From an uncultured Campylobacterales bacterium (GTDB lineage Bacteria > Campylobacterota > Campylobacteria > Campylobacterales > Arcobacteraceae), in NCBI GenBank assembly GCA_947494995.1, contig CANLWY010000004.1, forward strand, positions 186,001 to 250,000: a stretch of 64,000 nt of DNA, written 5' to 3'. The notes beneath the pieces are model-generated. The model did not search any database and had not been told where the DNA came from. It saw nothing but the letters and a program-made list of their open reading frames with translations. Positions within the stretch are counted from its first letter, which is position 1. Every line of letters starts with the position of its first letter. The position numbers and the translations under genes are program-made. This document shows positions 690-16,654 of this stretch, piece by piece.

Positions 690-2022
690 TGTTGTCATTG
701 ATTATGAACTTGTATCAAGTTTTGATATAAATGAGTTAATTAAAAATTTAATTTTACCTATAAAAAAAGAGGGAGTTTACTTAGATTGTTTTACTTCATT
801 AAATTCTAATATAGAAGAATTAAAAAATAATAGTTTAATTAAAGAGTTTTCTTTAGAAGAGATAGAAGTTCTTTTTTTCTTAAATGATATTGATATTAGA
901 ACAACTCTTTATAAACTATCAAAAAATGCAACTTTGAGTGAGGAAGTAAATTCAAATTTTATTTCTGAGTTTTTTTCAATATTAATTAAAAAGTCAATTG
1001 AGTCAAGGTCTAGTGACATACATATAGAAAGTTTTGAAAAGAGTTTAGTAATAAGATTTAGAGTAGATGGAAACTTGAAGATTTTTTATATATTTGAAAA
1101 ATCTTTTTCTAGTATTATAAGTTCATATATTAAAATGCTTTCAAAGTTAGATATAACAAATATTAGAACTCCAATGGATGGAAGGTTTTCAATGAAGTAT
1201 GAAAACAAAAACTATGATTTTAGAGTTTCAACAATGCCAACAATCTATGGAGAGTCTATTGTAATTAGAGTTTTAGATAATGAAGATATTACTAAAGACA
1301 TAAATAATCTAGGGTTCTCTAAAAATATTTTGAAATCTTTTTATTCTATAACTAAACTAACCCAAGGTTTAGTATTAGTTTCAGGACCGACAGGAAGTGG
1401 AAAAAGTACAACTTTATACTCTATTTTAAAAAAGTTTAATAAACAGAATAAAAAAATTGTAACTATAGAAGATCCTATAGAGTATAAGTTAGATAAGGTT
1501 CAACAAATTGAAGTTGATGAGTCAATAGGATTAGGTTTTGATACTATATTAAGAAATATATTAAGACAAGATCCAGATGTGATTTTAATAGGTGAAATTA
1601 GAGATGTAATCTCTTTAAAAGTTGCCCTACAAGCAGCTCTTACAGGACACTTGGTTTTAGCATCAATTCATGCAAACAATTCTATAGAAACACTTTCAAG
1701 ACTTGTTGATCTTGATGCAAACAGATATCTATTATCTACTACTTTAAAGTATATTATATCTCAAAGATTAGTTTTGAAAATTTGTAGAACTTGTAAAAAA
1801 GAAGGGTGCACAAAATGTAATTTTACAGGCTATTATGGAAGAAGTAACTTATGTGAGGTTTTAAAAGTTGATGATGAATTATCCACAAAAATTTTAAAAG
1901 ATGATGATATAAAAAAATATTTAGAAAGTATAAGTTATCAAACTATGTTAGATGATGGAAAGAAAAAAGTAGAGGAAGGAATTACTACATTAAGAGAGCT
2001 TTATAAAGTAATTGAGAATTAA
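676..2022 (+). CDS. type II secretion/type IV pilus assembly ATPase (GspE/PilB family)
   Basis: A 448-residue hexameric-type ATPase expected to power pseudopilus or pilus extension on the cytoplasmic face of the inner membrane. Visible motifs are Walker A GPTGSGKST at 237-245, the Asp/Walker B stretch DPDVILIGEIRD from about 299, and a tetracysteine zinc site C370, C373, C378, C381 typical of GspE. It is shorter than GspE/PilB (about 500-570 residues), mainly because the N-terminal domain is reduced. It overlaps the previous gene by 14 bases and the next by 11, so the three form one operon. Whether it serves secretion, competence or a pilus cannot be decided here. Confidence 0.93.
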   Translation: MKIYDVVIDYELVSSFDINELIKNLILPIKKEGVYLDCFTSLNSNIEELKNNSLIKEFSLEEIEVLFFLNDIDIRTTLYKLSKNATLSEEVNSNFISEFFSILIKKSIESRSSDIHIESFEKSLVIRFRVDGNLKIFYIFEKSFSSIISSYIKMLSKLDITNIRTPMDGRFSMKYENKNYDFRVSTMPTIYGESIVIRVLDNEDITKDINNLGFSKNILKSFYSITKLTQGLVLVSGPTGSGKSTTLYSILKKFNKQNKKIVTIEDPIEYKLDKVQQIEVDESIGLGFDTILRNILRQDPDVILIGEIRDVISLKVALQAALTGHLVLASIHANNSIETLSRLVDLDANRYLLSTTLKYIISQRLVLKICRTCKKEGCTKCNFTGYYGRSNLCEVLKVDDELSTKILKDDDIKKYLESISYQTMLDDGKKKVEEGITTLRELYKVIEN

Positions 2023-3202
2023 AAAATATAAAATCGTACATCAAGAAAAAAGAGAAATAAAAATTAAGTACATTGAAACTTTAGATATTGAAACTGAGGT
2101 ACTACCTAAAAATATTATTGAGATAAAAAGAGTAGGTCTAAATTTAACTTTAAACAGTTTTGAAACAATAAAAGAGAAGGATCTAATATCTAGATTTTAT
2201 GAGTTAAGTTTGATGTTGAATTCAAATTTATTATTTGATGATGCCTTAAGTATATTAATTAAAAATGAAAAAAATACAAAAATGAAAGAGTTTCTAGAAA
2301 GTTTAAAGAATTCTTTTATAAATTCAAAAGATATTAATAAAACACTTGAAAACTATAAAATTAATCCTTTGATAAAATCATTTTTAAAAATAACACAAGA
2401 TAGTGGAAATATATCTTCAAATATTGAGGCTTTGAGTAAAATAATAAGTGAGAATCATAAAATAAAAAAAGAGTTTAAAAAAGCAATGACATATCCTATT
2501 ATACTAGTCGTAACTTTTTTTCTAGCTTTGATTGGCATTTTTAAATTAGTAGTGCCAAATTTTGAATCAATATTTTCAAATAGTAAGATGGTTTTGCCTT
2601 TTGCAACAAAGGCTCTGCTTTTTACAAAGGATATTTTTGATAACTATCTTTTAACATCTTTTTCAATAATCTTTTTATTACTCTTTTTTTTAGTGTTTTT
2701 ATATAAAAAAAACCATTCTTTTAGATTCTTCCTTGATAAAGTTCTTGTAAATCACGCTTTTTTTATAAGTGATTTATATAAATTAAAAACATTGTATAAC
2801 TACCTTGTAGTTGTAGATATCTTACTTCAAAATAAGTACGAATTTTTAGAAAGTATAAGTAAATCAAAGGTTTTATTAAATAACAAATTCCTTTTAGCTA
2901 GAATTACGCAAATAGAAAAGCTACTTAAGAATGGAAAGAGTATTCGATTTGCTTTTGAATCTACAGAACTTTTTGATGATGTGACTTTAAGCTTGATAAA
3001 TACAGGAGAAGTTACAAACTCTTTAGATACTGTAATTTATGAGATTAAGAAAATATATAAAATAAGATTTGACGATAAGTTAAAGCTTTTTACTATTCTT
3101 ATCGAGCCACTATTTTTTATAATCATTATGGCTTTAATCATATGGATTATTTTAGCCATATTTGTTCCCTTGTGGAGTATGAATGATATGTTAAAGTTTT
3201 AA
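2012..3202 (+). CDS. type II secretion inner-membrane platform protein (GspF/PilC family)
   Basis: A 396-residue polytopic protein with two GspF-type helical cytoplasmic domains and three membrane segments, around residues 160-185, 213-232 and 350-385. It would anchor the ATPase to the inner membrane and guide pseudopilin assembly. The start is TTG at 2012, inside the ATPase gene; no better start lies nearby. It is the last secretion gene visible, and folE follows 13 bases later on the same strand, so folE may be read through from this operon. Confidence 0.9.
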
Positions 3203-3215
3203 GAGGAATAGATTT

Positions 3216-3788
3216 ATGAGTAAAGAATTAGAGTTTGAAAATTCTGTTAAAAATATATTAGAGTATATTGGTGAAGATGTAAATAGAGAGGGTTTAGAAA
3301 AGACTCCAAGTCGTGTTAGAAAAGCTTTTGAGTTTATGTGTGGTGGATATAAACAAGACCCAAAAAAGATTATAAATCAAGCATTATTTACAAGCTCAAA
3401 TGATGAAATGGTGGTTATAAAAGATATTGAATTTTATTCTATGTGTGAACACCATATGTTACCAATTATAGGAAAAGCCCATATCGCATATATCCCAAAT
3501 GGAAAAGTTGTAGGCCTTTCTAAAATACCAAGAATAGTAGATGTTTTTGCAAGAAGATTACAAATCCAAGAGCAAATGACAGAGCAAATCTGTGATGCAC
3601 TGCATGAAACACTAAATCCAAAAGGTGTTGCAGTCATGATTGATGCAAGACATATGTGTATGGAGATGAGAGGAGTAGAGAAAATCTGTTCTACTACTGT
3701 AACATCTGCATTAAGAGGACTTTTTAAAAGAGAGAAAAAAACAAAAGATGAGTTCCTTTCAATAGTTGCTCAATCTTTACATAAGTAG
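3216..3788 (+). CDS. folE: GTP cyclohydrolase I
   Basis: A 190-residue enzyme converting GTP to 7,8-dihydroneopterin triphosphate, the first step of folate (and queuosine-type deazaguanine) synthesis. The zinc ligands C77, H80 and C148 are present (CEHHMLP and HMCMEMRG), as is the conserved C-terminal [12 protein letters not shown] segment. Length is normal for the bacterial family. A ribosome-binding site AAGAGGAA precedes the ATG. The gene ends four bases before the convergent kinase gene. Confidence 0.97.
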
Positions 3789-3792
3789 GTTA

Positions 3793-5097
3793 CTAAATAG
3801 TATGCGGTAGAGTTATTGTAAACATAGCTCCTGTATACTTTTTATCTTTGTAAATAAACTTTTTATTTTTTACTTTAATCTTACCTTGCATATGTTTTGA
3901 AATGATTTCTTCACACATATAAAGTCCAATTCCTGTCCCATGACTTTGATGTTTTGTTGTAAAGTAAGGCTCAAAGATTTTTGTTATAATCTTACTTGAA
4001 ATTCCACCTGCGGTATCTTTTATTTGAATTATTAAATTGTATTCATCATTATAAACGTCTATAAATATAAACTTGTCTTTTATACCATTCTCATCAAATG
4101 CATCTTTTGAATTGTTAAATAGGTTTAATAAAACTTGTACTAATGCATTATCATAGTTAAGGATTTGAAAATCTTCAATATCTTTTATAAAAGTGATACC
4201 TTCACTTTTAAATTTTTTTCCTGTAATCATCATGGTTTTTTCAAAAGTGTGTGTTATTTTAAAAAACTCTTTTTTTTGATCGGGTTTGAAAAAACCTCTA
4301 AAGTCATCAATAGTTTTTGATAGATGTTGAGCTGAGTTGTTTATTAAATCCATAGATTCAGTAAGAAATTCATTGTTTAAGGTTCCTAAATCATATTGTA
4401 ATTTTACTCCTGTTGATGCGGTTGATATTGCTGATAAAGGTTGTCTCCATTGGTGTGCAATATTTTCTAAAATTTCTCCCATTGCAGCCATTTTAGATTG
4501 TTGCATCATTATTTTCTCTTTCTCTTTTAGCTCAGTAATATCTAAGGCTGCTGAAATAATTGTTTTCTTCCCATCAATTTTCATAAAAGGAGCAATATTA
4601 AATTGCCATATTATCTCTTTTTCTTCTTTTGTATGGATTGTATATGTAGAATTATTATCTTTAATTTCTTTTAGAGTAAATAGAGACATAATCTCTTCTT
4701 TTCTTTTTGAAGCATTCTCTCTATAGGCTTTTTTTACCCATTTATCTACTGTATTTATCTCTGAATATGAATAACCTGTTTTCTCTTTAAATGTTTTGTT
4801 TACCATTAATATTTTTCCATCTTCATCTAAGATAATGACAGGTGATGCAAGAGAGTTAAATGTATCTTTTAGTTTATATTTTGAGTCTTCAACTTTTGAA
4901 AATGATTTTTTAATAATAATATATAAAAAAATTGAAGTTATAGTTATGAAAAATAAATTTATTGATGTTTCTAAAAATAAAGTTAAATCGTTATTTTTTA
5001 TAAAAAGATATATAAGTTTATCAGAAAATAAAAACCATAAAAAGTAAATTGTAAAGTACAAGATTACAATTTTGAAAGCTTCTCTAGAGCTTTTCAT
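3793..5097 (-). CDS. PAS-domain membrane histidine kinase
   Basis: A 434-residue sensor kinase with two N-terminal membrane segments (about 9-27 and 44-62), a very short periplasmic loop, a PAS domain (about 78-190) and a kinase core. The phosphoacceptor H215 lies in AHQWRQPL, a variant common in Campylobacterota. N-box NNSKDAF, G1 DTAGGI and G2 GTGIGLYM are intact, so it should be active. No response regulator lies beside it, so its partner is unknown. The small loop suggests an intracellular or membrane signal sensed by the PAS domain. Confidence 0.9.
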   Translation of the reverse strand: MKSSREAFKIVILYFTIYFLWFLFSDKLIYLFIKNNDLTLFLETSINLFFITITSIFLYIIIKKSFSKVEDSKYKLKDTFNSLASPVIILDEDGKILMVNKTFKEKTGYSYSEINTVDKWVKKAYRENASKRKEEIMSLFTLKEIKDNNSTYTIHTKEEKEIIWQFNIAPFMKIDGKKTIISAALDITELKEKEKIMMQQSKMAAMGEILENIAHQWRQPLSAISTASTGVKLQYDLGTLNNEFLTESMDLINNSAQHLSKTIDDFRGFFKPDQKKEFFKITHTFEKTMMITGKKFKSEGITFIKDIEDFQILNYDNALVQVLLNLFNNSKDAFDENGIKDKFIFIDVYNDEYNLIIQIKDTAGGISSKIITKIFEPYFTTKHQSHGTGIGLYMCEEIISKHMQGKIKVKNKKFIYKDKKYTGAMFTITLPHTI

Positions 5098-5180
5098 TTA
5101 TTTCCTTTCTCTTTTAAAGGTAGATATATTATAGTATCAAAAAATTATTTAATATCTAATATATCTTATAAAAATTCTTT

Positions 5181-6533
5181 CTAAAGAAGAATTATCTTTG
5201 CTAGCATTAAAAAACTAAAGAAACCTACTATATCTGTAACAGTTGTTAATAGTACAGTACTTCCAATAGCTGGGTCAATATCCATTTTTTTAAGAAGTAA
5301 GGGGATTGAAGCTCCAAAGAATCCTGCACTAAAGAGATTTATAATCATAGACATAGCAATTACAAGTCCAAGCATTGCCGTATTAAACCATAACCAAGCT
5401 ACTACACCAATTATTACTGCAAAAATAAAACCATTTACTATGGAGATAAATACCTCTTTTTTTATGGCATCTTTACTATTATCAAAGTCAATATCTCCTA
5501 AAGCTAACTGTCTTACCATAACGGCTAAAGTTTGAGTTCCTGCATTTCCTCCCATTGAAGCAACAATTGGCATTAGAATAGCTAAGGCAACATATGATTG
5601 AATAGTTTCATCAAAAATACCAATAACAAGAGAAGCTAAAATAGCAGTACCTAGATTTAGAAATAACCATAAGGCTCTTTTTTTAGCTGTGATATAAAGA
5701 TTGTCTTCTTGCTCAAAGTCATCATCAACACCAGCTAGTTGGTACATTTGTTCTGTTGCGTTCTCTTCAATTACATCGATAATATCATCAGATGTAATTC
5801 TTCCCATTAACATATCTTGATAACCTACAACGGCAACAACAGAAAGGTCATATTTTTCAACTTGTTTTGCTACTTCATCAATATGTTCTTTATCTTGAAC
5901 TATAAAAGGTTTGAATTTATTCTCTTCATAAGCATTAATAATGTCATTATAAGTTTTTTCAAAATCTAAAAGAATTAAATCTTCAAGTAGAATTGCTGCA
6001 ATAAGTTTTTTGTCATTATTTACAACAAAAACTTGATGAATATTTTCTAGTTCATCTTCTGCTTTTCCTTGTTTTAGCCTATTTAGCGAGTCTTGAACTG
6101 TTTCATTTATATTTGCAGAAAAAAGCTCAGTTTGCATATATGCACCAGCTTCATCTTCATCATATCTCTTAAGCCAGTCAATCTCTTGTTGATCTTCTTC
6201 TTCAAGTCCTTCAAAAATCTCTTTTGCTTTTTTCTCATCTAATTCTTCAATTTCTTGAATAATATCAGTTGCATCATCAGATTCTAGTTCATCAACAGCT
6301 TCTGTAAGTTTTTCAATTGAGAGTTCTTCATATGCATCTTCTCTTAGGTTGTCAGGTAATTCAAGGATAACATCCCCTAAAATATCATCAGGGAGCTGTT
6401 TTAAAACGTAGAAAAAATCTTCTTCAGATTCTTTTTCAATTTTTTTTAGAGAGTATGCTATATCACTTGGGTGAAGATCATTTAACTTTTCTAAAAGTTC
6501 ATGGGGATTTTTTATAGCATTCTCTGTAGGCAT
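5181..6533 (-). CDS. mgtE: magnesium transporter MgtE
   Basis: A 450-residue Mg2+ channel/transporter of usual family length. It has an acidic N-terminal MgtE_N superhelical domain (about 1-130), a tandem CBS pair (about 130-265) and five C-terminal membrane helices including the conserved MPIVASMGGNAGTQ pore segment. The N-domain and CBS pair form the Mg2+-sensing gate in characterised homologues. A good ribosome-binding site (AAGGAGA) precedes the ATG, which overlaps the stop codon of csd3 by one base, so it is translated from the same message. Confidence 0.95.
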   Translation of the reverse strand: MPTENAIKNPHELLEKLNDLHPSDIAYSLKKIEKESEEDFFYVLKQLPDDILGDVILELPDNLREDAYEELSIEKLTEAVDELESDDATDIIQEIEELDEKKAKEIFEGLEEEDQQEIDWLKRYDEDEAGAYMQTELFSANINETVQDSLNRLKQGKAEDELENIHQVFVVNNDKKLIAAILLEDLILLDFEKTYNDIINAYEENKFKPFIVQDKEHIDEVAKQVEKYDLSVVAVVGYQDMLMGRITSDDIIDVIEENATEQMYQLAGVDDDFEQEDNLYITAKKRALWLFLNLGTAILASLVIGIFDETIQSYVALAILMPIVASMGGNAGTQTLAVMVRQLALGDIDFDNSKDAIKKEVFISIVNGFIFAVIIGVVAWLWFNTAMLGLVIAMSMIINLFSAGFFGASIPLLLKKMDIDPAIGSTVLLTTVTDIVGFFSFLMLAKIILL

Positions 6534-11085: not shown

Positions 11086-11505
11086 TTAAACAGTTAGCAT
11101 AAGCTGTGATAGTAAAATAATAGTTACAACTAAAATAAATGGTAACTTATGACTTTTAAATACAAATGGTTGAATTCCAAAAAATACCTGCATAATTCCT
11201 CTAAGACCTAACCAGCATCCTAGAATTGCTTTTATCCCTAAAACTATTTGATAGTTTGATAATCCATCTTCAGATATTGAACCAAAGCTTGTATGAATTA
11301 GAAATAGACCTGAAACAACTGCTACAACTAGTGCTTTTGGAACTAAAGCTCTTGTAAAGTGAGCAAAGTGTGTTCTAATTTCATTATATTTTTCTTCACT
11401 AAGTGATTTTTGCATTCTCATTAGAATTAAGTTATCAGTAAAAAGAAAACCACCATAAATAAATACTGAAAATAAATGAATTATTTTTGCAATGATAAAT
11501 GACAT
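11086..11505 (-). CDS. four-helix membrane protein, CopD/HemJ-like in outline
   Basis: A 139-residue protein with about four membrane helices and little else. The first helix has an IHLFSVFIYGG pattern with H10, recalling the haem- or copper-handling CopD/HemJ-type four-helix proteins. That similarity is by eye and uncertain. A Crp/Fnr-like palindrome lies 53-66 bases upstream of its start, linking it to the regulator inferred for the adjacent NosL module. Otherwise unrecognised. Confidence 0.6.
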   Translation of the reverse strand: MSFIIAKIIHLFSVFIYGGFLFTDNLILMRMQKSLSEEKYNEIRTHFAHFTRALVPKALVVAVVSGLFLIHTSFGSISEDGLSNYQIVLGIKAILGCWLGLRGIMQVFFGIQPFVFKSHKLPFILVVTIILLSQLMLTV

Positions 11506-11571: not shown

Positions 11572-12540
11572 CTATAGGAAAACTCCATTTTTAATATAAA
11601 AAATTATTGGATATAAGCTAACAATTAAAACATAAATTAAAATTGAGATAATAGAGTATTTATAGTATTTTTTATTATCCTCATTTAGGTTTAAAAGAAG
11701 GTTCTTTATTCCAATAGTAAATCCAAAAAACGTACCTAAAAATAAAAAGAGATATAGTACATATCCAATATAGTTATACTCTTTTTGAAGCATACAGAAA
11801 GGACAATGATGTGTTGGAAGTTCATATATATATGTTCCAAAAAACATTATTAGAGAGACAAGTGATACTATCAAAAATATTAAATTAAAGACTACATACA
11901 AATAATCATTTTTGATAAAATAAGCAATAACAAGAAGTAAAAATGTAAGATAAAAGCTTCCTACTATATATATATTATCAATTGCAAAAAATGAAGATAG
12001 ATATGAACCACTACTATTTGAATAGAGTGTTCCACAACATGAAACTAATTTATCAACATCAATTGAACTAAACATTGTAAGTTCTATTAGGATTTCTACT
12101 AAAAAAAGAAGATAGATAAATATATAAAAACCAAACTTTAGTTTTGTAAACTTCAGCTCTTTTGTATTTATATCAAATTTATGTATTACTAACCAAAAGC
12201 CAAAAAAATAGATGTTTATTAGTTTAAATAGAAGTAGATATATTCCATAACTTGTAGCATCAATAACTCCTGCTGCACACATAGCACCTGTTAAAACATT
12301 TGATATTTTATCAAGTGAAAAAATAAAAAAAATAAATAGTAGAATTTTAATAAAAAGTATATATTTTATAATAGTTGCAGATAGAAAACTTTGTTTTTCA
12401 AGAGTGTATTGAAGCTTTGAAGTAGAGTTCATATCCCATTTTAAAAATATTCTAATACCTAAGATAAAAGCTATGGTTCCAAAAACAAGAAATATTAGGT
12501 TAATAATTTGTATAGTTAAGACTTCAGGAGATAGTAACAT
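11572..12540 (-). CDS. polytopic membrane protein with Cys/His motifs, last gene of NosL-ABC operon
   Basis: A 322-residue protein of about eight membrane helices that I cannot place in a named family. Potential metal or thiol sites stand out: M87-C88, the vicinal pair C168-C169, and HHCPFCM at 244-250 just before a membrane helix. The last resembles DsbB/VKOR-type or copper-ligand motifs. It overlaps the ATPase gene by one base, so it is made with the transporter. A role in redox or metal transfer across the inner membrane is inference. Confidence 0.65.
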   Translation of the reverse strand: MLLSPEVLTIQIINLIFLVFGTIAFILGIRIFLKWDMNSTSKLQYTLEKQSFLSATIIKYILFIKILLFIFFIFSLDKISNVLTGAMCAAGVIDATSYGIYLLLFKLINIYFFGFWLVIHKFDINTKELKFTKLKFGFYIFIYLLFLVEILIELTMFSSIDVDKLVSCCGTLYSNSSGSYLSSFFAIDNIYIVGSFYLTFLLLVIAYFIKNDYLYVVFNLIFLIVSLVSLIMFFGTYIYELPTHHCPFCMLQKEYNYIGYVLYLFLFLGTFFGFTIGIKNLLLNLNEDNKKYYKYSIISILIYVLIVSLYPIIFYIKNGVFL

Positions 12541-13208
12541 TAGATTAATTCTCCATTAGATACTTCAATAACTTTATCTACAAAATCAAGTTCAAAAAAT
12601 AGTGGATCATGGGTTGCTGCTATGATAGTTTTCCCTTCATTCTTTAACTCTTGTAAAATATCTATGAAATGTAAAGAGAGTGCTTTATCTAAGTTTGCAG
12701 TTGGCTCATCTGCTATTATAATATTTGGATTGTTTACTTGGCTTCTTGCTATTGCAACTCTTTGTTGTTCTCCACCTGATAGATTTTTAACAATATCATT
12801 TTTTTTATGTTCAATTTTGAATTTTTTCATAACTAAATTTAGAATATCTTCTGCTTCTTTTGATGATAGATTTTGAGGAATCAAAGGAACAAGAATATTA
12901 TCTTTTACACTTAGAGTTGGAATTAGATTATACTTTTGAAAAATAAAACCAATTTTTTCTCTTCTAAATAGAGAGGAAAAATTATCTGGAAGTTTTGAAA
13001 TACGAGTATCTTCAATTATTACTTCTCCTGTTGTTGGTTTTGAAAGACCAGCAAGTAATGATAAAATAGTACTTTTCCCACTACCACTAGCACCTTTTAA
13101 TACAATCAATTCACCTTTTTTTATATTAAGGTTTATATCTTTAATTGCAGTTGTTTTATTGTTTTTATTTACTTCAAAAACTTTTGTTAAATTTTTTAAT
13201 TCTATCAT
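12540..13208 (-). CDS. ABC transporter ATP-binding protein (LolD/MacB type)
   Basis: A 222-residue ATPase with Walker A GASGSGKST, signature LSGGEQQRVAIARS and Walker B IIIADEPTANLD. The set is typical of the LolD/MacB/FtsE group, which drives mechanotransmission transporters rather than ordinary importers. It overlaps the FtsX-type permease by four bases and the downstream membrane protein by one base. The cluster has no periplasmic adaptor of the MacA type. Confidence 0.93.
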   Translation of the reverse strand: MIELKNLTKVFEVNKNNKTTAIKDINLNIKKGELIVLKGASGSGKSTILSLLAGLSKPTTGEVIIEDTRISKLPDNFSSLFRREKIGFIFQKYNLIPTLSVKDNILVPLIPQNLSSKEAEDILNLVMKKFKIEHKKNDIVKNLSGGEQQRVAIARSQVNNPNIIIADEPTANLDKALSLHFIDILQELKNEGKTIIAATHDPLFFELDFVDKVIEVSNGELI

Positions 13209-14392
13209 CTTAAAACCTTATCTGTCTCGATTGTTGCACTTCTCCATGCTGGAACAATAGTTGAGGCTATATAGATTGGAACACTTAAGAAAAATATTAA
13301 AAATAGAGTGTTTATATCCAATACAAAAGGAAGTTCAAAAGAGGTTTTAAGTTCTGAATATCCTGTAAAAATATTGCTTAATAGAGGTGCTTGAAGAATA
13401 TATACAAAAGTTAGTGCTATTAAAACTCCAAAAATATATCCTAGAAATGAGATAATAAAACTCTCATAAAACTTCTCTTTTAAGACATCTTCAACTTTCC
13501 AACCTAAAGCTTTTAATACTCCAATCTCTTTTTTCTCTTCGGAGCTAAGGCCACTTGCTTTATCATATACAATGATAAAAAAAGTAAAAATAGATATGAT
13601 AAAAAGAGCTAAAAAAATACCACCTTTATAGTCAAAGATATTTTGATAACTTATTTCTAACTCTTTATTTGTAATAACTCTTGTATCTGGATACATTAGT
13701 TTTATTTTTGAAGCAATTGTGAGTATCTCTTCAGGGTTTGCAACTTTTACAACAATATCTGTTGCCTTGTTTTCTTCCATGCCAAATATCTCTAAAGCTA
13801 ACTCTTTTGGGAGTAAAATTGTATCATTTGATTCTAGTTGAAGTGAAGATTTAAATACTCCACCTATATTTACTTTTACAAATGTTCCATCTGGTTTGAT
13901 AAAATTAAAATACTCTTTATAGTAATTCTCTTCTAAGGCCTTTTGTACACCCTCTCCAATTATCATTGAATTGTTTTCTAAAGCTTTTGAAAAATCATTC
14001 TCTTCTATGATTTTATTTAGAGAGTCTTTGTACTGGTTTTCATATTCATCTATTCCAATTATAGAGAAGTTTACCCCCATATTTACAAAATAGTAATAAC
14101 CCCAAACTCTTGGAATAGCATCTTGGACACCTGCAATATTAACAATCTCATCAATTACATCTATATCTATATCATAATGTCTTCCAGCCTTTAGTTTTTG
14201 TATAGTTATTGCAGGAAGAGTTTTTAATGTTGTGTCTAATTCATGTTTTATAGAGTTTGATATAAAAAATATTGATGCTAAAAGAGAGGTTAAAAGTGTA
14301 AAAATTATTAAAATAAAAATATTTTTGAATTTTTGCCTAAGAAGGGAGTTTATTGCATACTCCATTAAATATAAATTTATTTTATTTTTCAT
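13205..14392 (-). CDS. FtsX/MacB-type ABC permease
   Basis: A 395-residue permease with one N-terminal membrane helix (about 22-45), a large periplasmic domain (about 46-265) and three C-terminal helices (about 275-300, 325-350, 360-385). This is the MacB_PCD plus FtsX layout of mechanotransmission transporters such as LolC/E and MacB. The cytoplasmic loop EKKEIGVLKALGW is characteristic. Overlaps on both sides show coupling to the ATPase and to the small anchored protein. The substrate is unknown; delivery or extraction of an envelope metalloprotein is one possibility. Confidence 0.9.
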   Translation of the reverse strand: MKNKINLYLMEYAINSLLRQKFKNIFILIIFTLLTSLLASIFFISNSIKHELDTTLKTLPAITIQKLKAGRHYDIDIDVIDEIVNIAGVQDAIPRVWGYYYFVNMGVNFSIIGIDEYENQYKDSLNKIIEENDFSKALENNSMIIGEGVQKALEENYYKEYFNFIKPDGTFVKVNIGGVFKSSLQLESNDTILLPKELALEIFGMEENKATDIVVKVANPEEILTIASKIKLMYPDTRVITNKELEISYQNIFDYKGGIFLALFIISIFTFFIIVYDKASGLSSEEKKEIGVLKALGWKVEDVLKEKFYESFIISFLGYIFGVLIALTFVYILQAPLLSNIFTGYSELKTSFELPFVLDINTLFLIFFLSVPIYIASTIVPAWRSATIETDKVLR

Positions 14393-14702
14393 TTATGACC
14401 TTTGAAGGTGTATTATTTAAAATGTGTGAATGTGAGTAGACAAAAGTTGTTGGAAAGTATTCTCTTAACTCAGGGCTTTCTTTAAATATTGAGAAGGTAT
14501 CACTTAAAGTTCTATGTCTACTATACATAGCTTCTGTAGAAATAGCTAAATCAGGAAGACCTGTAATTGTTGTCAAACTTCTTTTCTCTTCTATATCTTT
14601 TTCTTTTAGAGTTTTTGTTTTTTGTAAATAAAAAGCTTCTATTGTTATAGTAAATATAGTTATTAAGATGATAGATATTAGATATTTACTTTTTTTATTC
14701 AT
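14382..14702 (-). CDS. small membrane-anchored periplasmic protein of NosL-ABC operon
   Basis: A 106-residue protein with an N-terminal membrane anchor (about 7-26) and a short periplasmic domain. The domain contains GLPDLAISTEAMYSRH and FPTTFVYSHSHIL, which look conserved because they are rich in aromatic, His and Met residues. It overlaps the two-domain NosL gene by 8 bases and the permease by 11. I recognise no named family. A metal-binding or transporter-accessory role is a guess from context. Confidence 0.65.
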   Translation of the reverse strand: MNKKSKYLISIILITIFTITIEAFYLQKTKTLKEKDIEEKRSLTTITGLPDLAISTEAMYSRHRTLSDTFSIFKESPELREYFPTTFVYSHSHILNNTPSKVINEK

Positions 14703-15822
14703 CTAGTTTGTAGACCTCATTCTCTTTTATATCTTTAAAGTGAAGAATCTTTTTCCCTACATGGTCTTTTTTAAAAGTTTTTGCATCTTCTTCTTTTTCA
14801 AAAGGAATTAGTTCATTTCCCATAGGTCCATAAACATCAGAACCAATTACGTAAAAGGCTTTTGTTCCATCAATCCCTTCTTGTGAATAGTAATCAGTAA
14901 CTAAAATCTTTTTAATCATACTTTTATTCACTGGATAATCTCCCCACTTTTGAGGGTTGAAGTAAAACTTCATTAGATCTTTTACTCCATCAAATGAAAA
15001 CTTATGTTCATGATCATCATGTTTATAAAATATTTGTGCAGCCCATCTTGGATACTTTGCAACAAACATTCCACATACTGGGCATTTCTCACCTTCTTCT
15101 ACTATAACTCTATTTTTTATAGAGTCTAAAGAACCAAATCTTTTTACTTCCCAAAGATATAAAGCTACTGCTTGAAGTTTTTTCTCATCTAATTTTTTAC
15201 ATAAATTATTGTTTTTTATATCAGCTTTAAGTTCGTTAATTTCTAAATAGTTTGTAGGGTCAATATCTTGATTACATAGTTTTTCAAAGATTTTCTTTCC
15301 CTTTGGATAGACTTTTTTTATTTTTTTATTTTTAAATTTTTTAGTATCTGTTTTTAAATCTTCTTGTGCTTTTTTTAATGCTTCTTGGAAAGAGACTATT
15401 TCCCCTTTATATTTCTTTTTAAACTCTTTTGCATCTTCTTCTTTTTCAAAGGCAATTTTACTTTTTATTGCCATTGTTCCTTTTACTTTACTTCCTACAA
15501 CATAGAAAGCTTCTTTAGCATTTATTAGTTTTTGTGTTTTTGCATCTACTACTTGAATATGATTATTGTCTATTCCATACTCTTCTTTATCTTTTGCTAA
15601 ACATCTTATTGAACAGTATTGTCTATTTGTACCATTTTCAAGTTTTGCTGCATGTGATGTTTTATAAAAACTTTCAATATGCATTCCACAAACGGGGCAC
15701 CAGTGTTTCTCTTCGCCTTTTTGTGTAAGTTCTGGTTCAACTGTAGCTTTTTTAGAAAAAGAAGTTGCATTTAGGTTAATAAACAGTGCTGAAAATAGGA
15801 ATAAAAATAAAAGTTTTTTCAT
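14695..15822 (-). CDS. exported protein with two NosL domains
   Basis: A 375-residue periplasmic protein with a signal peptide (1-19) and no lipobox. The first NosL domain has C42/C45 (CPVCGM) and C70/C74; the second has C247/C250 (CPVCGM) and a His-rich HDDHEH. NosL is a copper-binding accessory of nitrous oxide reductase maturation. Between the two domains lies a helical stretch with C183 and C208 and KKLQAVALYLW, shared with the divergent NosL protein. First gene of the five-gene operon. Confidence 0.85.
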   Translation of the reverse strand: MKKLLFLFLFSALFINLNATSFSKKATVEPELTQKGEEKHWCPVCGMHIESFYKTSHAAKLENGTNRQYCSIRCLAKDKEEYGIDNNHIQVVDAKTQKLINAKEAFYVVGSKVKGTMAIKSKIAFEKEEDAKEFKKKYKGEIVSFQEALKKAQEDLKTDTKKFKNKKIKKVYPKGKKIFEKLCNQDIDPTNYLEINELKADIKNNNLCKKLDEKKLQAVALYLWEVKRFGSLDSIKNRVIVEEGEKCPVCGMFVAKYPRWAAQIFYKHDDHEHKFSFDGVKDLMKFYFNPQKWGDYPVNKSMIKKILVTDYYSQEGIDGTKAFYVIGSDVYGPMGNELIPFEKEEDAKTFKKDHVGKKILHFKDIKENEVYKLDE

Positions 15823-15866
15823 AAGTTGTGTCCTTCAAGATATGAAAAGTATGATAACTAAAAATT

Positions 15867-15912
15867 GTTAAGTATGAGTTAACATATGTCAATAATTTAA
15901 CATATACTTAAC
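15867..15912. promoter_or_regulatory. nested operator region between divergent nosL genes
   Basis: Two overlapping symmetries occur here. The outer inverted repeat is GTTAAGTAT (15867-15875) and ATACTTAAC (15904-15912). Inside it is TTAACATATGTCAA (15879-15892), close to the Crp/Fnr-type pattern TTAAC-N4-GTTAA known for Campylobacter NssR. A second box-like run, TTAACATATACTTAA, begins at 15897. The position, about 44-89 bases from both starts, suits joint control of the two divergent nosL genes. Confidence 0.55.
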
Positions 15913-15955
15913 TTTTTGATTATAAGATATAGTAATTTTAAAATGAAGGAAGAAG

Positions 15956-16654
15956 ATGAAAAAGTTGATTGTTTCAATTATAACTTTGGCTTTATTTGTT
16001 TCTGTGTCTAGTGCTCAAGAAAAAATGGAAAAAAAACCAAAGATGAGGTATACGGCTGTACCTATGAAAGATGCAACCTTAGTACAAAAAGGTGACTCAA
16101 AAAACTATTGTCCAATTTGTGGAATGACCTTACCAATGTTTTATAAAACATCACATGCAGCAAAGCATAAGGGTGTAGATAAACAATATTGTTCAATTCA
16201 CTGTATGGTTGAGGATAAAGAAGTTAATGGTTCTGATTTATCAGAGTATAAAGTTGTAGATAATACTTCTTTAGATCTAATTGATGCTAAGAATGCTTTC
16301 TATGTAGTAGGAAGTAATAAACCAGCAACTATGGCAATGGTAAGCAAGTACGCATTTGCAAAAAAAGAAGATGCTCAAGCTTTTGCTAAAGCAAATGGAG
16401 GAGAGCTTAAAAACTTTGATGAAGTTTATTCAATGGTTGCAAGTGATCTTAAAAAAGAGAGTGAAATGATTGCTAAAAGACAAAAGAAAATGCAAATGAT
16501 GGGAGGAAAAGTTTATAATAAAATGTGTAAAAAAACTGATGAAAAATTCTCTTCTACAGCAGATGCAAAAACTTTTGTAACAAAGAATAAATTGTGCGGA
16601 AATCTTAAAGGAAAGAAACTTCAAGCAGTAGGTATTTATCTTTCAAGAAGATAG
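15956..16654 (+). CDS. exported single-domain NosL protein
   Basis: A 232-residue periplasmic protein with a signal peptide (1-20). Its NosL domain has C52/C55 (CPICGM) and C79/C83. The C-terminal helical tail with C191, C214 and KKLQAVGIYL matches the inter-domain stretch of the divergent two-domain protein. The tail outwardly resembles a small cytochrome c fold without CxxCH. It likely carries copper for the same module. No nosZ is present in this window, so a role in nitrous oxide reduction is unproven. The start follows GAAGGAAGAAG. Confidence 0.85.
   Translation: MKKLIVSIITLALFVSVSSAQEKMEKKPKMRYTAVPMKDATLVQKGDSKNYCPICGMTLPMFYKTSHAAKHKGVDKQYCSIHCMVEDKEVNGSDLSEYKVVDNTSLDLIDAKNAFYVVGSNKPATMAMVSKYAFAKKEDAQAFAKANGGELKNFDEVYSMVASDLKKESEMIAKRQKKMQMMGGKVYNKMCKKTDEKFSSTADAKTFVTKNKLCGNLKGKKLQAVGIYLSRR

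Follow-up and report, generated by a model that had tools for sequence, protein, structure and literature searches.

A 64,000-nucleotide stretch of the genome of an uncultured Campylobacterales bacterium from the Arcobacteraceae (GCA_947494995.1, contig CANLWY010000004.1, positions 186,001 to 250,000), referred to as the window in the following, harbors a compact set of six genes that places NosL proteins next to an ATP-binding cassette (ABC) transporter. Five of these genes lie on the reverse strand and encode the exported protein NosL2 (positions 14695–15822, 375 amino acids), a small protein with an N-terminal membrane anchor (14382–14702, 106 amino acids), an FtsX/MacB-type permease (13205–14392, 395 amino acids), an ABC ATPase (12540–13208, 222 amino acids) and a protein with eight predicted transmembrane helices, for which we use the working name MemC (11572–12540, 322 amino acids). 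The sixth gene, NosL1 (15956–16654, forward strand, 232 amino acids), diverges from the other five. All six open reading frames (ORFs) are located where a first-pass annotation of this DNA had placed them, and their coordinates give overlaps of 8 bp between NosL2 and the small protein, 11 bp between the small protein and the permease, 4 bp between the permease and the ATPase, and 1 bp between the ATPase and MemC, that is, the described range of 1–11 bp. As laid out below, this module is real and widely conserved, it is tied to nitrous oxide (N2O) respiration in many but not all of its carriers, and it has previously remained unnamed.

Pfam searches agree with the proposals made from the sequence on a NosL protein with two NosL domains, a divergent NosL, an FtsX-type permease and an ATPase. 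The NosL family (PF05573, cut-off 24 bits) matches NosL2 in two stretches with 185 bits and NosL1 with 61 bits; the permease reaches 50 bits for FtsX (PF02687, cut-off 25.5) and 25.0 bits, just under the cut-off of 27, for MacB_PCD (PF12704); and the ATPase reaches 124 bits for ABC_tran (PF00005). The small protein, which contains a conserved GLPDLA...RHR...EYFP pattern, matches no curated Pfam family above its cut-off. In NCBIfam, the nearest models for the ABC pair are LolCDE, FtsE and MacB, and each equivalog cut-off is missed: the permease scores 57 bits with the LolCE model, far under its cut-off of 362 bits, and the ATPase 193 bits with LolD (cut-off 308) and 192 bits with FtsE. With an FtsX domain over its cut-off and an ATPase whose best-scoring models include LolD and FtsE, the pair belongs to the FtsX/MacB-type (type VII) ABC proteins, which generally do mechanical work and do not carry small ions across the membrane. 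The view that this transporter is of the mechanotransmission type and distinct from NosFY thus holds: the set comprises no NosDFY subunits, the permease being of the FtsX type and the ATPase only 31% identical to NosF from the same genome. Likewise, none of the ORFs in the window encodes nosZ, nosD, nosF or nosY, as had been noted; what had been missed is a complete nos cluster on another contig (C1) of this genome, with nosZ, B, D, G, C1, C2, H, F, L and Y and a further NosL.

NosL2 is modelled as two NosL domains separated by a haem-less cytochrome c fold (AF2 model; predicted local distance difference test, pLDDT, 89.6). In the alignment, the first NosL domain (residues 37–143; 15394–15714, reverse strand) contains a cysteine set of CxxCGM and CSxxC; its model gives weak structural matches to MerB (Z 5.5–6.8). 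The helical middle domain (residues 166–231; 15130–15327, reverse strand), in which C183 and C208 are conserved, superimposes on cytochrome c6 with a Z score of 6.5 and 2.7 Å over 65 residues; there are many further cytochrome c matches, although at Z scores of only 4–6.5 over about 62–65 residues. It also has the sequence pattern of a cytochrome, with an N-terminal helix ending in a single cysteine and a C-terminal LQAVxxYL helix, yet the haem motif CXXCH is absent from all 65 sequences inspected (44 NosL2 and 21 NosL1). The second NosL domain (residues 243–372; 14707–15096, reverse strand), with invariant C247, C250, M252, GPMG and D353-H354, resembles genuine NosL closely: its model matches NosL 7og7 with a Z score of 16.8 and 2.1 Å over 123 residues, and five NosL chains with Z scores of 15–17, the solved matches including NosDFY-bound NosL. 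NosL is an established Cu(I) chaperone with a CXM motif (PMC6530538). The CGM of this motif is invariant in the alignment of the second domain, and we therefore count it in favor of a role in copper relay. NosL1, which had been described as a single-domain protein, does contain a NosL domain, but the alignment shows a domain of the first type followed by a C-terminal helical domain like that in the middle of NosL2. NosL also occurs within ORFs of about 900 amino acids in genomes G055, G051, G072, G100 and G102.

MemC has no Pfam family, no sequence match in the PDB and no match on plasmids. Its AF2 model (pLDDT 75) consists of eight helices, and the residues M87, C88, C168, C169, H244, C246 and C249 are invariant in the alignment. 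They belong to three conserved cysteine loops on one side of the model, GAMC (12253–12297), SCCG (12004–12054) and ELPTHHCPFC (11773–11835, all on the reverse strand), which are predicted to be periplasmic because lysine and arginine are few there and more frequent in the opposite loops. Foldseek returned no match at E ≤ 0.001 (best E 2.6). The VIA matches, generic four-helix bundles over residues 1–164, were rejected as a guide to the fold, since their Z scores of up to 13.4 are at about the level common for helical bundles; accordingly, we assign no fold to MemC.

The arrangement is not confined to this strain. A scan with the permease over 85,000 genomes, which detects close relatives only and is the sole test outside Campylobacterota, yielded 41 loci, almost all of them in Campylobacterota. 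The order small protein–permease–ATPase–MemC is kept in nearly all 41, mostly preceded by NosL2. With a profile of MemC, the protein is found in 161 of 397 genomes and 34 of 68 genera of Campylobacteria, and the gene order, whose persistence beyond this strain the first-pass annotation had put forward as a test, is kept across Arcobacteraceae, Sulfurimonadaceae, Sulfurovaceae, Sulfurospirillaceae and other Campylobacterota. As it recurs in dozens of loci, it is not a product of chance. A tree of MemC separates two fully supported types, type I with 67 rows, among them the protein of the window, and type II with 9. Genes for CcsBA cytochrome c biogenesis lie within 15 kb of four type II loci, one of them in the congener G057, which also has a type I module; the paralogous type II modules near CcsBA are found at loci L121, L124, L125 and L118. 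At L044, L047, L055, L072 and L143, foreign genes stand between the permease and ATPase genes, neither of which is broken.

The module is linked to the nos genes in several ways. In G057, 150 bp separate the end of the module from nosY, after which come NosL, a kinase-regulator pair and nosZBDG. In Sulfurospirillaceae, it is found within the nos operon, between nosL and nosY; the order at L148 and L062 is nosZBDG-C1-C2-H-F-L-[Small-Perm-ATPase-MemC-NosL3]-nosY. A five-gene insertion at this position was reported for Sulfurospirillum cavolei in 2016, with the labels 'ABC transporter' and 'hypothetical' (PMC4794192). Its genes, a hypothetical, an ABC permease, an ABC ATPase and two hypotheticals, correspond to Small-Perm-ATPase-MemC-NosL3 of L062 and L148, but they were seen as an insertion in one nos cluster, with no module status, NosL2 or NosL1, regulon or distribution. 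To our reading, these unnamed genes inside a single N2O gene cluster are the only earlier record of the module.

We compared its distribution with that of nosZ, for which the set comprises 126 genes over the cut-off and two split genes among the 397 genomes. MemC modules and nosZ occur together in 103 genomes, the module alone in 58, nosZ alone in 25 and neither in 211; for type I modules, these numbers are 45, 27, 83 and 242, all of them genome-level counts that ignore phylogeny. At the genus level, which lessens but does not remove the effect of shared ancestry, 25 genera have both, 9 and 6 have only one of the two, and 28 have neither (p = 7e-6). The co-occurrence check that had been suggested thus shows an association, yet one in which a third of the carriers lack nosZ. 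In the 45 genomes with both type I and nosZ, the two lie within 17 kb in 21 cases, far apart on the same contig in 10 and on different contigs in 14. The idea that the module stands apart from N2O reductase is not supported, in view of this co-occurrence, the proximity in 21 of 45 genomes, its place in the nos operon of Sulfurospirillaceae and the promoter box at nosZ in relatives, described below. Conversely, with 27 of 72 type I genomes lacking nosZ and 25 nosZ genomes lacking the module, it is neither specific to nosZ nor required for it in every species, and the 27 nosZ-less genomes imply that nosZ is not its sole client. The module is thus more than an accessory of nos, and yet not separate from it.

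The 133-bp divergent promoter between NosL2 and NosL1 contains two boxes of the form TTAAC-N6-TTAAC, one for each gene, which are conserved in congeners: GTTAAGTATGAGTTAA (15867–15882, reverse strand) stands on the coding strand of NosL2, 44 bp before that gene, and TTAACATATACTTAAC (15897–15912, forward strand) about 44 bp before NosL1. Their repeats are spaced by 11 bp, as is typical of OmpR-family regulators. Genome-wide, the pattern is not rare, with 25 sites in the same genome versus 20 for a reversed control, and it is only its placement, not its number, that is informative. Intergenic boxes in this genome precede an OmpR-type regulator-kinase pair, an operon for a TonB-dependent receptor and a gene pair for a NosL-like protein (NosL3) and a DsbD_2 protein. 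Across all fetched loci, the box is found upstream of NosL1 in 12 of 14 cases, NosL2 in 19 of 46, ExbB in 3 of 4, nosZ in 2 of 5 and the regulator in 2 of 13, as against 3 of 642 unlabelled other genes. The TonB operon (locus L117, positions 797–6253, contig C2) encodes the receptor, a polyferredoxin with a C-terminal NosL, ExbB, ExbD and TonB, and is possibly a system for TonB-dependent uptake and metal reduction. Orthologs of the regulator and kinase adjoin the module at L128, L130, L145 and L146, and at L046 the polyferredoxin-NosL, regulator, kinase, DsbD_2 protein and module are all clustered; parts that are dispersed in our genome are therefore neighbors elsewhere. Together, the boxes define a putative regulon that unites the module with the regulator-kinase pair and the TonB operon and that extends to nosZ and ExbB in relatives. 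A separate regulator-kinase pair adjoins nosZ at L116 (17019–19375) and differs from the regulator of the TonB operon.

From these observations, we consider it rather probable that the module relays copper at the expense of ATP, as part of a regulon for copper acquisition, and that it serves N2O reductase along with other cuproenzymes. Cu(I) would be bound by the CXM motifs of NosL1 and NosL2 and travel with these proteins through the periplasm, and the permease, ATPase and small anchored protein would assemble into an ABC complex of the mechanotransmission type, in which cytoplasmic ATP use drives a conformational change in the periplasm. An FtsX-type ABC pair beside NosL is most simply understood as working mechanically on a partner in the periplasm, be it NosL2, MemC or both. 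Copper would thus be passed among NosL2, the Cys/Met/His loops of MemC and client apo-proteins, with no pumping across the membrane. Here, we infer copper as the cargo, its direction of travel, the coupling to ATP, MemC as a copper or thiol site and the binding of the regulator to the box. The putative regulon would comprise the OmpR-family regulator and kinase, the TonB receptor, the polyferredoxin-NosL fusion, possibly a cupric reductase, ExbB-ExbD-TonB, the NosL-like protein and the DsbD_2 membrane protein. Clade II N2O reductase is probably a main client, for which the module would deliver copper to NosDFYL. As nosZ is missing from a third of the carriers, there is likely to be a second client, for example cbb3 oxidase. 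The earlier notion of an envelope system for copper handling or metalloprotein maturation 'of its own' therefore survives in its first part, the envelope module, and not in its second.

A number of points weigh against this interpretation: the nosZ promoter of this genome has no exact copy of the box; the nosZ-less carriers of type I include even a congener (L139), and the 25 nosZ genomes without a module add to them; shared ancestry may contribute to the counts given above; the cysteine loops of MemC are of low confidence in the AF2 model; and the TonB receptor is most like YncD/PqqU and siderophore receptors, none of its matches being a copper-receptor model. An assignment of this receptor to the OprC/NosA-type copper receptors is unsupported, the best matches being siderophore-, PqqU- and YncD-like.

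The paired invariant cysteine motifs of MemC (CC and CPFC) also fit a sulfur or thiol relay, in which MemC and the ABC complex bring sulfide or reducing equivalents, either to assemble CuZ, the sulfide-containing centre of N2O reductase, or to maintain copper ligands in reduced form, and NosL supplies copper separately. NosDFY itself has been proposed to supply sulfur (PMC6530538), a DsbD_2 gene adjoins the set in several loci, and type II modules lie near CcsBA. Still, several NosL domains form the core of the set, its box is shared with the TonB uptake operon, and the third of carriers that lack nosZ have no CuZ to serve, so that we regard this explanation as unlikely. For MemC as a DsbB/VKOR-like thiol oxidoreductase, we found neither a Pfam nor a fold match, and the loops in question are those of low model confidence.

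Import of copper into the cytoplasm, with NosL2 handing Cu(I) to the ABC complex and MemC for passage through the inner membrane, appears more doubtful again: the likely clients are periplasmic, and FtsX/MacB-type ABC proteins are mostly mechanical workers and not small-ion carriers. In its favor, the TonB uptake operon carries the same box, and genes of the FtsX-type ABC kind are present in the P19 iron-uptake operon as well, where growth in low iron depends on the downstream genes (PMC6083913). The same iron system, with its distantly related ABC pair, and the likeness of the TonB receptor to siderophore and pyrroloquinoline quinone (PQQ) receptors could point to a metal other than copper, such as iron or a metal-chelator complex. 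The CXM motif of the NosL domains, the nosZ linkage and the absence of a P19 protein from this genome make this very improbable. Least credible is that the module serves copper efflux or periplasmic detoxification. MacB-like exporters and NosL as a conceivable copper sink could be cited for this, but the set has no outer-membrane channel or MacA-like adaptor, it is tied to nosZ, a copper-requiring enzyme, and a TonB operon among the members of the putative regulon suggests acquisition more than efflux.

NosDFYL (PDB 7osf-7osj, 7znq) is among the known systems closest to the proposed copper relay, since there, too, a NosL chaperone and an ABC complex cooperate in bringing copper to the periplasmic enzyme; its NosL is matched by the second domain of NosL2, and the module can share its operon. 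Unlike NosDFYL, the module has an FtsX-type permease in place of NosY and no NosD, two NosL domains flanking a cytochrome-like domain, and MemC and the small protein in addition, and NosF, NosY and NosD of this genome are encoded separately in the nos cluster. The P19 system of Campylobacter jejuni (Cj1658-1665; PMC6083913) likewise joins a periplasmic metal protein and a polytopic membrane protein to an FtsX-type ABC transporter, with ATPases 38–39% identical to that of the module, but it has two permeases, FTR1 and thioredoxins, and no NosL. BLAST found no match of MemC to the P19 operons L156-L158, remote homology not being searched, and the P19 protein (PF10634) has no match in this genome; we therefore rejected this system as the parent of the module. 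LolCDE, MacB and FtsEX share the FtsX domain and a LolD/FtsE-like ATPase with the module, which differs in scoring under all equivalog cut-offs and in having no MacA and no lipoprotein-release context.

Clade II N2O reducers are an important sink for the greenhouse gas N2O, and the copper loading of their N2O reductase is incompletely understood. The module offers a concrete, deletable gene set with a testable promoter box, and MemC stands for a further membrane protein family, one for which no relatives are known. If the proposed relay is true, energised periplasmic copper delivery is not unique to NosDFY, and an FtsX/MacB-type ABC transporter is used for it, too. More tentatively, and with less conviction than for the relay as such, we suggest that MemC represents a new family of membrane copper (or copper-thiol) relays, which a mechanotransmission ABC complex would drive and NosL2 would load, the two NosL copper domains of NosL2 being joined by a haem-less cytochrome c domain; the whole would be a second, NosDFY-independent energised copper-loading machine, within an unrecognised copper regulon of Campylobacterota.

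Two further genes border the module. A DUF2269/CopD-like small membrane protein is encoded 66 bp downstream of MemC (11086–11505, reverse strand); it was rejected as an additional member of the set, since in relatives it is 2 kb off or not found. A gene for a DUF4149 protein lies upstream of the module in Sulfurimonas, and both are probably chance neighbors.

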